Of a stretch of 64,000 nt of DNA, positions 31,773-36,261 are shown in pieces. Positions within the stretch are counted from its first letter, which is position 1. Each line of letters starts with the position of its first letter. The notes beneath the pieces were generated by a model. The model made no database searches. It saw only the letters and a program-made list of their open reading frames with translations, and was not told the origin of the DNA. The stretch is taken from contig NZ_CP041742.1 in assembly GCF_007556775.1 (NCBI RefSeq), forward strand, positions 1,812,001 through 1,876,000, written 5' to 3'. This DNA comes from Lysobacter lycopersici (GTDB taxonomy: Bacteria; Pseudomonadota; Gammaproteobacteria; Xanthomonadales; Xanthomonadaceae). A program made the position numbers and the translations under genes.

Positions 31773-32297
31773 ATGCGTACTTTGACCTTTTTCGCCGCCC
31801 TCGCAATCGGCGCATGGCCCGCGTTCGTTGCGCATGCCGCAACCATCGCCAAGACGCACACGCAGGATCCGGCCACTGCCTGCACCCTCAGCATTCCAAC
31901 GACCGACACCCGGGTTCGGCCCAAGGCCCTGGGCTTTCGCAACGAAGGCACGACGAATGCCTTCGTCATCTGCGGCATCGATAATTTTTCCAACGTGGAC
32001 GGGTTCAACTGGATCATGCTCACCTTCAAGTCCTTCGACGGAAAGGGGCATTCCTTCGATTGCACCGCGGTGAGCAACACCGCTTCCGTTTCTTCGCCCC
32101 AATTCCTTTCCGAGACTGTCGTCATTGGCAACCCCGGCATCCCCGGGTTCTTCGATGTCAGCGTGGAAGACAACGATTACGATCCGGAGGTCTACGACCT
32201 CAAGCACCAGGCCCAATCCTTTACCTGTCTCCTGCCCCCGGGCATGGCGATCATCGGCGTCGCAGCGGGGCAGAACGACGTGGATGGAGACCCTTGA
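31773..32297 (+). CDS. Array paralog 1 (type A): exported four-cysteine protein, unknown family
   Basis: 174 residues with a signal peptide ending near VAHA (residue 22). The mature part begins KTHTQDPATACTLSIP. Cysteines at 37, 67, 97 and 152 are shared with all array members. The core reads CTLSIPTTDTRVRPKALGF, RNEGTTNAFVIC, then FDCT and FTCLLPP. GGGAGG is 9 bp upstream of ATG 31773. I do not recognise the family; the even cysteine spacing and short beta-like segments suggest a disulphide-stabilised beta domain in the periplasm or outside the cell. First of seven tandem paralogs. Confidence 0.8.
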   Translation: MRTLTFFAALAIGAWPAFVAHAATIAKTHTQDPATACTLSIPTTDTRVRPKALGFRNEGTTNAFVICGIDNFSNVDGFNWIMLTFKSFDGKGHSFDCTAVSNTASVSSPQFLSETVVIGNPGIPGFFDVSVEDNDYDPEVYDLKHQAQSFTCLLPPGMAIIGVAAGQNDVDGDP

Positions 32298-32423
32298 GCG
32301 CGGCGTTCCGAACGTGGTGATGGTCGACTTGTTCCCGGGCGATTGGCCGCTCCCGGGCAAGGCGGGCGTTGTCCCGGGTGTTTCCGTTCCACCCCATGTC
32401 CAATTTCCAACAGAGGTATCCGC

Positions 32424-32942
32424 ATGCGTACGTCTTTCGCTTTCCTCGCCGCAACCGCCGCCTTCGCGAGCCTGTTCGCGATGCCGGCGCACGCAGGCTT
32501 CGTCAACAAGACCCATACCCAGAACGCCGCCACTTCCTGCACGCTCAGCATTCCCAGCATCGATACCAAGGCGCGGCCCAAGGCGACCGGCTTTCGCAAC
32601 GAGGGCACCACGAACGTCTTCGTGATCTGCGGCTTCGACCTCGATTCCACGGATCCCGGCTACAACAACATCGAATTGCGACTCGCCTCGTTCGATGGCG
32701 CTGCGCATACCTTCAACTGCACCGCGATGAGCCGGTATGCGGACGAACAGGCGGGCCAGTACCTGACGAAATCGGTTACCACCGCCGCGAACGGCGTCGC
32801 GGCCCCCTTCACCGTCGACGATACCGACCCGGAGACCTACGACCTGTACCCCTGGGGCCAGTCGATCACCTGCACCTTGCCTCCGGGCGTCGCCATCCTG
32901 ACTTTGTGGAGCAACCACGACGACGAAGATTCGGTGCCCTGA
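32424..32942 (+). CDS. Array paralog 2 (type A): exported four-cysteine protein
   Basis: 172 residues, signal peptide ending AMPAHA (residue 24). Cysteines at 39, 69, 99 and 150. Closest to paralog 1: KTHTQNAATSCTLSIP, RPKATGFRNEG, FVICGFD. The C-terminus is acidic (HDDEDSVP). ATG 32424 is preceded by CAGAGGTATCCGC (AGAGG site). A GC-rich hairpin with four Ts follows the stop, so paralogs 1 and 2 probably form one transcript. Confidence 0.8.
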   Translation: MRTSFAFLAATAAFASLFAMPAHAGFVNKTHTQNAATSCTLSIPSIDTKARPKATGFRNEGTTNVFVICGFDLDSTDPGYNNIELRLASFDGAAHTFNCTAMSRYADEQAGQYLTKSVTTAANGVAAPFTVDDTDPETYDLYPWGQSITCTLPPGVAILTLWSNHDDEDSVP

Positions 32943-32965
32943 CGGATCCGCCCCGCGCGGCCCGG

Positions 32966-32990
32966 CCCCGGCCGATGCCGGGGTTTTCGT
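32966..32990 (+). terminator. Terminator after array paralog 2
   Basis: Stem CCCCGGC (32966-32972), loop CGAT, GCCGGGG (32977-32983), then TTTTCGTT. It starts 23 bp after the stop of paralog 2. Confidence 0.65.
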
Positions 32991-33070
32991 TTGCGCGCAG
33001 TGAACAATCCCCACGGCGCTTTCCGCTATCCTCGCGCCTCCGCCATGCACAGCACCATCGGAGGAATTCC

Positions 33071-33598
33071 GTGCATTTCGTGAAAAGCGGCCTCGCCGCC
33101 TTCTCGCTTGCCGCCGGATTGGCCGCGGCGCCCGCGGCGACCGCCGTCACCCAGGACAAGGTCTATGAGTTCTCCGCCGCCGACGCCTGCCAGCTGAGCG
33201 TCCCCACCACGGACACCAAGGTACGGCCGCGCGCCAACGGCTACCGCAACGAAGGCACCAGCAACCAGTTCGTGATCTGCGGCATGGGCGGTTACGAAAA
33301 AGGCACGGTGTTGTACATGGCGCTGCTGTACACCTCGATGGACGGGGCGCAACACGACATGTCGTGCACCGGCGTCACCGGCCTGACCGGTTCCGAAAGC
33401 GGCCCGCTTTACTCGACCAAGACCGTTTCCGTCGCGGCGTCCGGATATTCCTTCGCAACCTGGGGCGCCGAGGATTTCGGTGCCGACGAAGGCGCGCCGA
33501 TCGACTCCGGCATGAACCTGTCGGTGACCTGCACCTTGCCGCCGAACGTGGCGCTGCAGGGATTCGAATCCGAACAGCTGATCGACGTCGGCAACTGA
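33071..33598 (+). CDS. Array paralog 3 (type B): exported four-cysteine protein
   Basis: 175 residues starting at GTG 33071, which has GGAGG (33060-33064) 6 bp upstream; no in-frame ATG exists before the signal peptide. Signal peptide ends around PAATA (residue 25). Cysteines at 40, 70, 99 and 154. Type B hallmarks: YEFSAADACQLSVP, ANGYRNEGTSNQFVIC, and the ending PPNVALQGFES. The central coding segment is almost identical in DNA to paralog 4 (86 bp without a difference), showing recent duplication or conversion. Confidence 0.8.
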   Translation: MHFVKSGLAAFSLAAGLAAAPAATAVTQDKVYEFSAADACQLSVPTTDTKVRPRANGYRNEGTSNQFVICGMGGYEKGTVLYMALLYTSMDGAQHDMSCTGVTGLTGSESGPLYSTKTVSVAASGYSFATWGAEDFGADEGAPIDSGMNLSVTCTLPPNVALQGFESEQLIDVGN

Positions 33599-33610
33599 GG
33601 AAGCGTGCAT

Positions 33611-34135
33611 ATGCCTTCGAACGTTTGTGTTTCCATGCTTGCCTGCGCGCTCGTTGCGGGCTCCCTGGCCCTGCCTGCGCGCGCAGCGACCCAGGCCAAG
33701 ACCTATGAATTCCCCGCCGCCGATGCCTGCCAGCTGAGCGTCCCCACCACGGATACCAAGGTACGGCCGCGCGCCAACGGCTACCGCAACGAAGGCACCA
33801 GCAACCAGTTCGTGATCTGCGGCATGGGCGGTTACGAAAACGACACCGTGATGTCGACGACCCTGCTCGCGACATCGGTGGACGGCCAGGCACACAGCAT
33901 GACCTGCACCGGCGTCACCGGCCTGGCGGGTTTCGATGGCCCGTACTACTCCGCGAAGACCGTGACCGTGCCGTCGTCGGGCGTCGGCACGCAGTCGTGG
34001 GCGGCCGCGGATTTCGGCGGCACCGAAGGCGAGGTGATCGCGGGCGGGCTGAACCTCTCCGTGACTTGCACGCTGCCGCCGAACGTGGCGCTGCAGGGAT
34101 TCGAATCGCAGGGAATCATCGACGTCGGCAATTGA
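33611..34135 (+). CDS. Array paralog 4 (type B): exported four-cysteine protein
   Basis: 174 residues from ATG 33611 (GAGGA at 33597-33601, 9 bp spacing; a GTG at 33605 is too close). Signal peptide ends LPARA (residue 25). Cysteines at 40, 70, 99 and 153. It starts 12 bp after paralog 3 and is probably co-transcribed with it. Same core as paralog 3, but the stretch from residue 76 to 148 differs at many positions, so the pair has diverged outside the conserved core. Confidence 0.8.
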   Translation: MPSNVCVSMLACALVAGSLALPARAATQAKTYEFPAADACQLSVPTTDTKVRPRANGYRNEGTSNQFVICGMGGYENDTVMSTTLLATSVDGQAHSMTCTGVTGLAGFDGPYYSAKTVTVPSSGVGTQSWAAADFGGTEGEVIAGGLNLSVTCTLPPNVALQGFESQGIIDVGN

Positions 34136-34161
34136 TCGTTTCGCGACGCTGGTTCCTCGAG

Positions 34162-34192
34162 CCCCGGCCCCGGCCGGGGTTTCGCTTTTTTG
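34162..34192 (+). terminator. Terminator after array paralog 4
   Basis: CCCCGG (34162-34167) pairs with CCGGGG (34174-34179), followed by TTTCGCTTTTTTG. The same unit, with a similar leader after it, recurs after paralog 5. Confidence 0.7.
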
Positions 34193-34270
34193 CCCGGGCA
34201 TGTCCGCTTGCGGGGCGGTTTTACGCATGGGAGATGACGGCCGATCCGCGTCGCTTCCACGGGAATCCTC

Positions 34271-34786
34271 ATGCGCACCCTCCTGCTCGCCGCCGCCCCC
34301 GTCTTCCTGCTGGGCGGAATGTTGGCCACGACGCCTTCCCATGCCGCCACCATCTCCAAGGTCGCCAACCGCAATCCCGCGGGTGCCTGCATGCTGAGCA
34401 TCCCGACCACCGATACCGGCGTCCGGCCCAAGGCCTCCGGCTTTCGAAACGAAGGCACGGTCAACAATTTCGTGATCTGCAACTTCGACGTCGATACCGA
34501 CATCGCAGGGTTCACCAAGCTCGTCGTGAATTTCGTTTCCTTCGATGGTGCCGCGCATGCGTTCGATTGCACTGGCATGGATCGCTATGCCGGCACGGCT
34601 ACTGGCGACTATGCGACGAAGTCCGTTTCCATCACCGCCGGCGGCACAGCTTACATTTCCTTCTTGCCAAGCGACTTCCCGTCCACGGGCCTGGTCGGAT
34701 GGAACGCATCCGTCACCTGCACGCTCCCGCCAGGCGTCTCCATCATTACCGTGGCCGGATACCACGACGACAATGTCGGCGCTTGA
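34271..34786 (+). CDS. Array paralog 5 (type A): exported four-cysteine protein
   Basis: 171 residues, signal peptide ending TPSHA (residue 25). Cysteines at 40, 70, 100 and 150. Core: CMLSIPTTDTGVRPKASGF, RNEGTVNNFVIC, ASVTCTLPPGVSI. Acidic end YHDDNVGA as in paralog 2. The 75-bp leader before ATG 34271 is clearly similar to that of paralog 6, so both gene and promoter region were copied. Own terminator follows. Confidence 0.8.
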   Translation: MRTLLLAAAPVFLLGGMLATTPSHAATISKVANRNPAGACMLSIPTTDTGVRPKASGFRNEGTVNNFVICNFDVDTDIAGFTKLVVNFVSFDGAAHAFDCTGMDRYAGTATGDYATKSVSITAGGTAYISFLPSDFPSTGLVGWNASVTCTLPPGVSIITVAGYHDDNVGA

Positions 34787-34805
34787 ATGCGTCGTGTTCC
34801 TGCGC

Positions 34806-34838
34806 GAACCCCGGCCCGGCTGGGGTTCCGCTTTTTTT
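34806..34838 (+). terminator. Terminator after array paralog 5
   Basis: GAACCCC (34806-34812) pairs with GGGGTTC (34822-34828), then CGCTTTTTTT. Starts 19 bp after the stop of paralog 5. Confidence 0.75.
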
Positions 34839-34916
34839 GCGCGGCGATGTCCGCTTCAGGGGTGGTTTTTCGCATAAGGGTTGACGACCGATCCGCGTCG
34901 TTTCAGGGGATTCCGC

Positions 34917-35573
34917 ATGCGCGCCATTCCGATCGCCATCGCCTCCACCTTGCTGGGGGCCACCCTCGCGCCAATCCCCGCCATCGCCGGCTCCGTGCTC
35001 AAGACCCTGACCCAGGACGCGGGCAATGCCTGCTCGCTCAGCATCCCGACCACCGACACAGGCGTGCGGCCCAAGGCCACCGGCTTCCGCAACGAAGGCA
35101 CCGCCAACGCCTTCGTCATCTGCAGCGCGGACGTCGCGAACGCCGATGGTTTCGGTGGCGATACGACCTACATCGGGCTGAGCCTCGCCTCGTTCGATGG
35201 CAATGCGCATACCACCAACTGCACGGCCGTGGCCCGCTATCCGGACACCTTGTCCAACATCCAGTACGTCACCCTTCCCGCGCTGAACACCGCCGCAACC
35301 GGCGTTGCCACGAGTCTGACCACGAACGGCGCCCCACCCAGTTATTACGACCACCAACGCGGCGTGCTGTCGGTGACCTGCGTCCTGCCGCCAGGGGTTT
35401 CGATCCTGGCCGTACAGCGTGGCTACAAAGACATCGACAGCAACGACGGCAGCATGCCGCATTCGCTCCCGCAGTGCGGGGATGGCCTCGACGACGACAA
35501 CGACGGGCTCTCCGATTACCCGGCGGATCCGGAATGCCAGTCGGATTACGACAACGACGAATCCATTCTCTGA
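34917..35573 (+). CDS. Array paralog 6 (type A) with acidic two-cysteine C-terminal extension
   Basis: 218 residues from ATG 34917 (AGGGGA 7 bp upstream). Signal peptide ends PAIAG. Core cysteines at 39, 69, 102 and 155. After the core, where other paralogs end, it continues with a 40-residue extension containing CGDGLDDDNDGLSDYP and DPEC (Cys187, Cys207). That extension matches the calcium-binding-like Asp-rich motif seen at the end of many secreted bacterial proteins. Only this copy has it, so a module was gained here or lost from the others. Confidence 0.8.
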   Translation: MRAIPIAIASTLLGATLAPIPAIAGSVLKTLTQDAGNACSLSIPTTDTGVRPKATGFRNEGTANAFVICSADVANADGFGGDTTYIGLSLASFDGNAHTTNCTAVARYPDTLSNIQYVTLPALNTAATGVATSLTTNGAPPSYYDHQRGVLSVTCVLPPGVSILAVQRGYKDIDSNDGSMPHSLPQCGDGLDDDNDGLSDYPADPECQSDYDNDESIL

Positions 35574-35715
35574 TGCGGGTAGGCCCCGCTTCTTCGCTTA
35601 AACCCCGCTTCGGTCGGGGACCTCGTTCGCAACGCCGGTCATGGCCGTTCTCGCCCGCCGCCACCGTTATGAAAGGAAGGCGCCTGTTGGCGACCATTAC
35701 TCCGGAGAACCCGAC

Positions 35716-36261
35716 ATGCCCTCGATCCATCGCATCGCCCTGGCCACGACCCTGATCCTCGGTTGCGTCTACGCCTCCCCGGCGCCCGCCGCATACAACC
35801 GGTATCTGGAATTCAACGGCGCCTCCTCGTGCCAGCTGAGCATTCCGACCACCGATACCATGGTCCGCCCGCGCGCGAACGGTTATCGCAACGAGGGCTC
35901 CGGCAACCAGTTCGTGATCTGCGGCCTGAGCGGATACGAGGCCACCGACGGCAAGACCGGATCCGCGACCGTGCTTTATGCCGCCATGTTTGCCACGTCC
36001 ACGGACGGCCAGACGCATCAAATGACCTGTACCGGCGTCGGCGGACTGACCGGATACAGCAGCGTACTGTACTCATCCAAGACGCAGACCGTGCCCGCGG
36101 CGGGCTATGCCCTGTTCAAATGGGAAGCGTCCGACTTCGGGGGCACCGCCGGGGCGCCGATCCCGTACAGCACCGCATTGAATCTGTCGGTGACGTGCAC
36201 GCTGCCTTCGCACGTCGCCGTGCAGTCGATCGAAGCGAAGCTTCAGTTCACCGATTCCTGA
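35716..36261 (+). CDS. Array paralog 7 (type B): exported four-cysteine protein
   Basis: 181 residues from ATG 35716 (CGGAGA, 7-8 bp upstream). Signal peptide ends SPAPA (residue 25). Cysteines at 39, 69, 105 and 161. Type B features YLEFNGASSCQLSIP and ANGYRNEGSGNQFVIC, with a short insertion (ATDGKTGSAT) between the second and third cysteine. The open frame reaches back to 35641 but the sequence there is not a signal peptide. It is convergent with the radical SAM gene, 5 bp away, and closes the array. Confidence 0.8.
   Translation: MPSIHRIALATTLILGCVYASPAPAAYNRYLEFNGASSCQLSIPTTDTMVRPRANGYRNEGSGNQFVICGLSGYEATDGKTGSATVLYAAMFATSTDGQTHQMTCTGVGGLTGYSSVLYSSKTQTVPAAGYALFKWEASDFGGTAGAPIPYSTALNLSVTCTLPSHVAVQSIEAKLQFTDS

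Follow-up and report, generated by a model that had tools for sequence, protein, structure and literature searches.

We analyzed seven consecutive genes within a 64,000-nucleotide stretch of Lysobacter lycopersici DNA (contig NZ_CP041742.1, positions 1,812,001–1,876,000; hereafter the window), which encode putatively exported proteins sharing four cysteines. Phylogenetic analysis shows that these seven genes, as judged from the present sampling, belong to a 36-gene lineage-specific radiation of single origin. Gene adjacency and co-inheritance further show that the family protein and a predicted membrane-anchored partner constitute an undescribed two-gene unit of the envelope found across Xanthomonadaceae, with Luteimonas arsenica, L. 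padinae and L. colneyensis among the carriers. The analysis thereby identifies two unnamed protein families and reveals how extensively exported proteins have multiplied in a small genome. We propose, with a probability of about 0.45, that the family comprises exported binding proteins which are clients of a membrane-anchored type II secretion system (T2SS) chaperone and which expanded into a co-regulated repertoire. The link to the partner and a family-specific promoter-like element turn a 'hypothetical protein' into a testable pathway in terms of its regulator, secretion route and ligands.

The expanded family and its partner gene

The host genome consists of a single contig of 2.596 Mb, in which a narrow profile detected 37 and a broad profile 39 family copies, distributed over 16 sites as singletons or in clusters of two to seven. 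The first-pass annotation of the window had described seven tandem paralogs; their relatedness and integrity stood, whereas their extent had to be widened to this dispersed set. In a tree of 70 family sequences (rows s0–s69, assigned by input order, with near-identical pairs such as the Luteimonas orthologs s45/s49 falling as predicted), 36 of the 39 host copies formed one clade (99/99) that contained no sequence from any other genome. The copies at 193, 605 and 2301 kb fell outside this clade, the 605-kb (100/100) and 2301-kb (99/91) copies grouping with genes of other genera. The subtype order A A B B A A B previously read from the window was recovered as two separate clades, comprising genes 1, 2, 5 and 6 (A; 100/98) and genes 3, 4 and 7 (B; 100/100).

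All four cysteines were present without exception in the 70 sequences. Among the 37 copies extracted from the genome, the first two cysteines (C1 and C2) were separated by 30 (22 copies) or 31 residues (15 copies), with C2–C3 and C3–C4 spacings of 28–39 and 49–63 residues, respectively. Each of these copies was full-length with all four cysteines, no dead copy being seen, and carried a signal-peptide-like amino terminus according to a simple hydropathy and small-x-small rule, via which the family proteins are predicted to cross the inner membrane.

Searches with the family members yielded nothing above chance in Pfam, NCBIfam, PHROGs and PADLOC, likewise for ten divergent relatives, and the family profile found no match among the PDB sequences, in line with the earlier suggestion of an exported family outside all named families. 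No toxin family matched among the libraries scanned, and a literature search turned up no description of the family. The expanded subfamily found no match in named genomes, a set possibly not including the host's own and near genomes. A prophage or plasmid origin of the copies was rejected, as no relative was detected in viral contigs, phages or plasmids.

Within the same bacterial family (Xanthomonadaceae, equivalent to Lysobacteraceae), the narrow profile matched 15 of 345 genomes, the highest copy numbers outside the host being nine and seven, and the broad profile matched 14 of 397 genomes order-wide and 2 of 398 phylum-wide, the host genome being counted each time. They are minimum values, as the profiles overlooked divergent members that came to light later via the partner gene. 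In another family of the same class, a tandem array of three divergent family genes (locus L178, 6043–7448), beside which no partner was detected, shows that, on sequence grounds, the family reaches beyond the two-gene unit.

At the host sites at 605, 2301 and 2549 kb, the family gene is adjoined by homologous open reading frames (ORFs), whose products have a membrane helix at the N-terminus and a C-x4-C motif in the C-terminal domain. This partner is predicted to span the membrane once and to place a two-cysteine domain in the periplasm, and most of the other genomes carrying the family likewise have its gene beside the family gene. In 31 family–partner pairs, both genes were always located on the same strand, with the family gene first in 21 and the partner first in 10 cases, and a median gap of 116 bp. 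The protein distances of family and partner correlated with a Mantel r of 0.757, reached by none of 5000 permutations; this correlation includes the species' shared descent and alone does not prove contact between the two proteins. In a reverse test, all seven partner loci kept out of the partner profile had an adjoining family gene, six of which had been missed earlier, and two more Luteimonas loci, one from L. padinae and the other from a metagenome assembly of Luteimonas, displayed the same arrangement. A partner-profile search of the host genome revealed three partner genes only, at 3 of the 16 sites and none in the window. Four copies adjoin a partner, namely those at 605 kb and 2301 kb and two at 2549 kb; the other 35, including all seven window genes, do not.

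Promoter-like element and sequence variation

The upstream regions of 17 dispersed copies share the element TGTCCG[CG]TT-N14-CGCATA, located 69–75 nt before the start codon; in the window it precedes genes 5 and 6 (Table 1), and several other copies exhibit weaker look-alikes at equal distance. Allowing at most one mismatch, the element occurred 18 times genome-wide, 17 of these matches lying upstream of family genes, and a reversed control pattern gave no match in the genome. Exact matches amounted to 14 in the host genome versus 2 in 59 other genomes. The sole non-family match, at 591.7 kb upstream of a gene for an exported DUF2272 protein (locus L152, 5593–6621, − strand), was set aside because it carries one mismatch and lies farther from the start codon than in the family. 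The spacing TGTCCG-N17-CGCATA is compatible with a −35/−10 pair of an alternative sigma factor; it would also suit a weak sigma-70 promoter overlain by an activator site. The host genome contains 13 sigma-70-type genes, and the element was absent from those of their flanks that were read. An extracytoplasmic function (ECF)-type sigma factor is encoded (locus L071, 4840–5418) roughly 2 kb away from the 2541-kb family copies; as a candidate regulator it was set aside, its gene being nearby but lacking the element in its own flanks.

Sequence conservation is unevenly distributed along the proteins, with a mean pairwise identity among the host copies of 0.64 for the C1–C2 segment versus 0.23–0.27 for the C2–C4 part. 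The paralog sets of two other genomes exhibited the same tilt, the conserved segment itself differing between genomes. Such conservation of C1–C2 within each genome is expected from a partner common to the copies of that genome, though shared descent contributes. Only two pairs had synonymous sites that were not saturated; their ratio of nonsynonymous to synonymous substitution rates (dN/dS) for C2–C4 was 0.5–0.6, which is fast but does not exceed 1. The suggested diversification under selection agrees with these data insofar as C2–C4 diverges while C1–C2 is held; positive selection, in turn, is not demonstrable because synonymous sites are saturated in nearly all pairs.

The DNA of genes 3 and 4 is near-identical over C1–C2 (33180–33299 versus 33720–33839), where the proportion of synonymous differences (pS) was 0.08 compared to 0.44 elsewhere, with 2 versus about 23 synonymous differences. 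This stretch, the one conversion-like tract among 666 pairs, has the appearance of a sequence as after gene conversion. Widespread gene conversion therefore appears unlikely, a clear tract being found in genes 3 and 4 only; this tract was also the one sign of the recombination between copies that is frequent in antigenically variable or phase-variable surface families.

Predicted folds, the proposed export route and its alternatives

The product of gene 5 was modelled with AlphaFold2 using an alignment of 38 members, resulting in a confident all-beta structure with a predicted local distance difference test (pLDDT) value of 88.6 and a predicted template modelling score (pTM) of 0.80. In fold comparisons by Foldseek and VIA-align, the best solved matches were jelly-roll carbohydrate-binding modules (CBMs), namely the BT0996-C CBM (Z 10.4, root-mean-square deviation 2.9, 119 residues) and CBM61 (Z 9.6). 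The CBM matches, which included CBM35, CBM61, CBM22, CBM15 and others, covered residues 28–166 with Z values of 8.4–10.4 at 7–14% identity. The family is predicted to fold as a jelly-roll beta-sandwich, in which the four invariant cysteines presumably form two disulfides. As phage tail and Eph-receptor sandwiches scored just below the CBMs, this is a statement on the fold and not on the function. Unlike CBMs, the family protein is stand-alone with no enzyme attached, carries the four invariant cysteines and belongs to no CBM family, neither the 38 members nor the ten divergent relatives matching any CBM family in Pfam.

In the partner model, the hydrophobic transmembrane (TM) helix, comprising residues 14–43, is followed by a disordered linker, then by a long helix and finally by a ferredoxin-like domain. 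Its fold matches reached Z values of 6–8, including EpsL (7.9), PulL (6.8) and XcpY (6.5) as well as PilO. The succession of TM helix, long helix and ferredoxin-like domain is that of the inner-membrane proteins GspL, GspM and PilO, although the matches reach no more than Z 6–8 and there is no sequence match.

The membrane-bound T2SS chaperones of Acinetobacter, which are encoded beside their effector and have a TM helix at the N-terminus and the C-terminus in the periplasm, were defined by such features together with the dependence of secretion on them (PMC4713064). The host genome encodes the T2SS secretin GspD (507.9 bits compared to a cut-off of 351). Given an adjacent gene, an N-terminal membrane anchor, a periplasmic domain, an exported client with conserved cysteines and a T2SS, we rank a client–chaperone unit with an enlarged set of clients first, surface subunits second and the other readings lower. 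According to this proposal, the membrane-anchored periplasmic partner would take up the exported family protein during folding and deliver it to the type II machinery, in the way that LipA is handled by LipB/Lif and CpaA by CpaB. The common partner would recognise the C1–C2 segment (LSIPTTDTxVRPKATGFRNE), and binding specificity, plausibly directed at carbohydrates, would differ from copy to copy through the variable C2–C4 part. In the host, the 39 clients would be served in trans by the three partners, and the shared element would allow much of the set to be turned on by a single regulator or sigma factor. The outcome would be a set of binding proteins, secreted or at the surface, under common regulation.

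The arrangement resembles LipA–LipB (Lif) and CpaA–CpaB in that adjacent genes, in either order, encode a signal-peptide protein and a TM-anchored periplasmic protein. It would also resemble LipB in one chaperone serving distant clients, as LipB also acts on LipC, whose gene lies at a distance of 2 Mb (PMC4713064). In contrast to these pairs, there is no common sequence family and the partner domain is predicted to be ferredoxin-like with C-x4-C, and the clients are small predicted jelly-roll proteins and not known enzymes, at a ratio of 39 clients to three partners in the host. The partner gave no match to a chaperone family in Pfam and NCBIfam; as the T2SS-chaperone kind is defined by layout and not by homology, we claim only that the partner possibly works like one.

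Several observations weigh against the client–chaperone proposal. Jelly-rolls are common, many unrelated sandwiches reaching Z values of 8–10, and no sugar-binding site was identified in the family model. The fold scores of the partner lie in a range that the comparison tool labels as common arrangements, and Pfam revealed no sequence relationship of the partner to Lif or CpaB. Furthermore, most host copies and six of the seven in Luteimonas arsenica stand without an adjoining partner, so that a partner in cis is dispensable. A further-reaching version, which we regard as speculative and on balance doubtful, describes a secreted recognition repertoire: one half of the export unit would have been freed from its partner and grown to 36 diverged binders, combining a fixed partner face with free specificity loops under one dedicated promoter type. 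If true, this small genome would display dozens of different binders simultaneously.

It is rather unlikely, yet worth weighing, that the proteins are structural subunits that assemble through the conserved segment into a surface layer, matrix or fibre, with the partner as the anchor and the many paralogs generating a mosaic surface. A segment common to the copies next to a variable remainder, the common promoter-like element and the surface-protein-like tail of gene 6 would all suit such an assembly, but a reading of the site neighbours recognised no usher, sortase or pilus assembly gene, many genomes hold single-copy members, and the predicted fold is nearer to CBM jelly-rolls than to an Ig-like pilin.

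We consider it improbable that the two proteins are parts of an envelope machine, in which a PilO/GspM/GspL-like partner would act with the family proteins as periplasmic modulators or substrates of a type IV pilus or type II machine, with no secreted repertoire. The layout of the partner and its matches to EpsL, PulL, XcpY and PilO point in this direction, as do two PilT/PilU-like ORFs, recognised by eye, that adjoin the copies at 1257–1258 kb; however, the Z values reach only 6–8, the neighbours at the other sites are unrelated, and 39 copies are ill-suited to a machine component.

Slightly less probable still is a largely neutral amplification, in which tandem and dispersed duplicates were retained by chance under weak constraint on the variable part. 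The dN/dS of 0.5–0.6 in C2–C4 and the conversion-like tract in genes 3 and 4 are consistent with it, whereas the persistence of full-length copies with four cysteines despite saturated synonymous sites, the promoter-like element held at one position and the lack of the dead copies expected in a small genome argue against it. Least probable is a pair of a secreted antibacterial toxin and a membrane-anchored periplasmic immunity protein, for while the co-inherited same-strand unit and the patchy distribution recall such pairs, most host copies are intact without an adjoining immunity gene, where toxins would be expected to be lost, and no toxin family was matched.

Features of the window genes

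The ORFs and the signal-peptide rule bear out seven intact genes on the + strand with products of 171–218 residues (Table 1). The reported distance of 30 residues between the first two cysteines holds for all seven, and all four cysteines align throughout. In an alignment of the seven, the products share 33–50% identity with that of gene 1 over the full mature length, with a common core of C-x-LS-[IV]-P...DT..RP.A.G.RNEG...FVIC in addition to an invariant asparagine and the four cysteines. Genes 3 and 4 lie 12 bp apart and are probably co-transcribed.

Table 1 Family genes and promoter-like elements in the window (window numbering)
Feature	Position	Strand	Description
Family gene 1	31773..32297	+	Subtype A, 174 aa; ORF with signal peptide and 4 Cys; clade A
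Family gene 2	32424..32942	+	Subtype A, 172 aa
Family gene 3	33071..33598	+	Subtype B, 175 aa; GTG start
Family gene 4	33611..34135	+	Subtype B, 174 aa; starts 12 bp past gene 3
Promoter-like element of gene 5	34201..34229	+	TGTCCGCTT-N14-CGCATG
Family gene 5	34271..34786	+	Subtype A, 171 aa; copy chosen for structure prediction
Promoter-like element of gene 6	34848..34876	+	TGTCCGCTT-N14-CGCATA
Family gene 6	34917..35573	+	Subtype A, 218 aa; acidic two-cysteine C-terminal tail
Family gene 7	35716..36261	+	Subtype B, 181 aa

The C-terminal 40 residues of gene 6 form an acidic two-cysteine tail (CGDGLDDDNDGLSDYPADPEC) found in this copy only. It scored 17.7 bits (E 0.0022) against the NCBIfam model acid_disulf_rpt (NF033662), under the cut-off of 41, and may possibly be a calcium-binding surface motif fused to one copy. 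Elsewhere in the genome, the 311-kb family copy starts 73 bp beyond the end of a tRNA-Glu gene (locus L062, 6396–6471).

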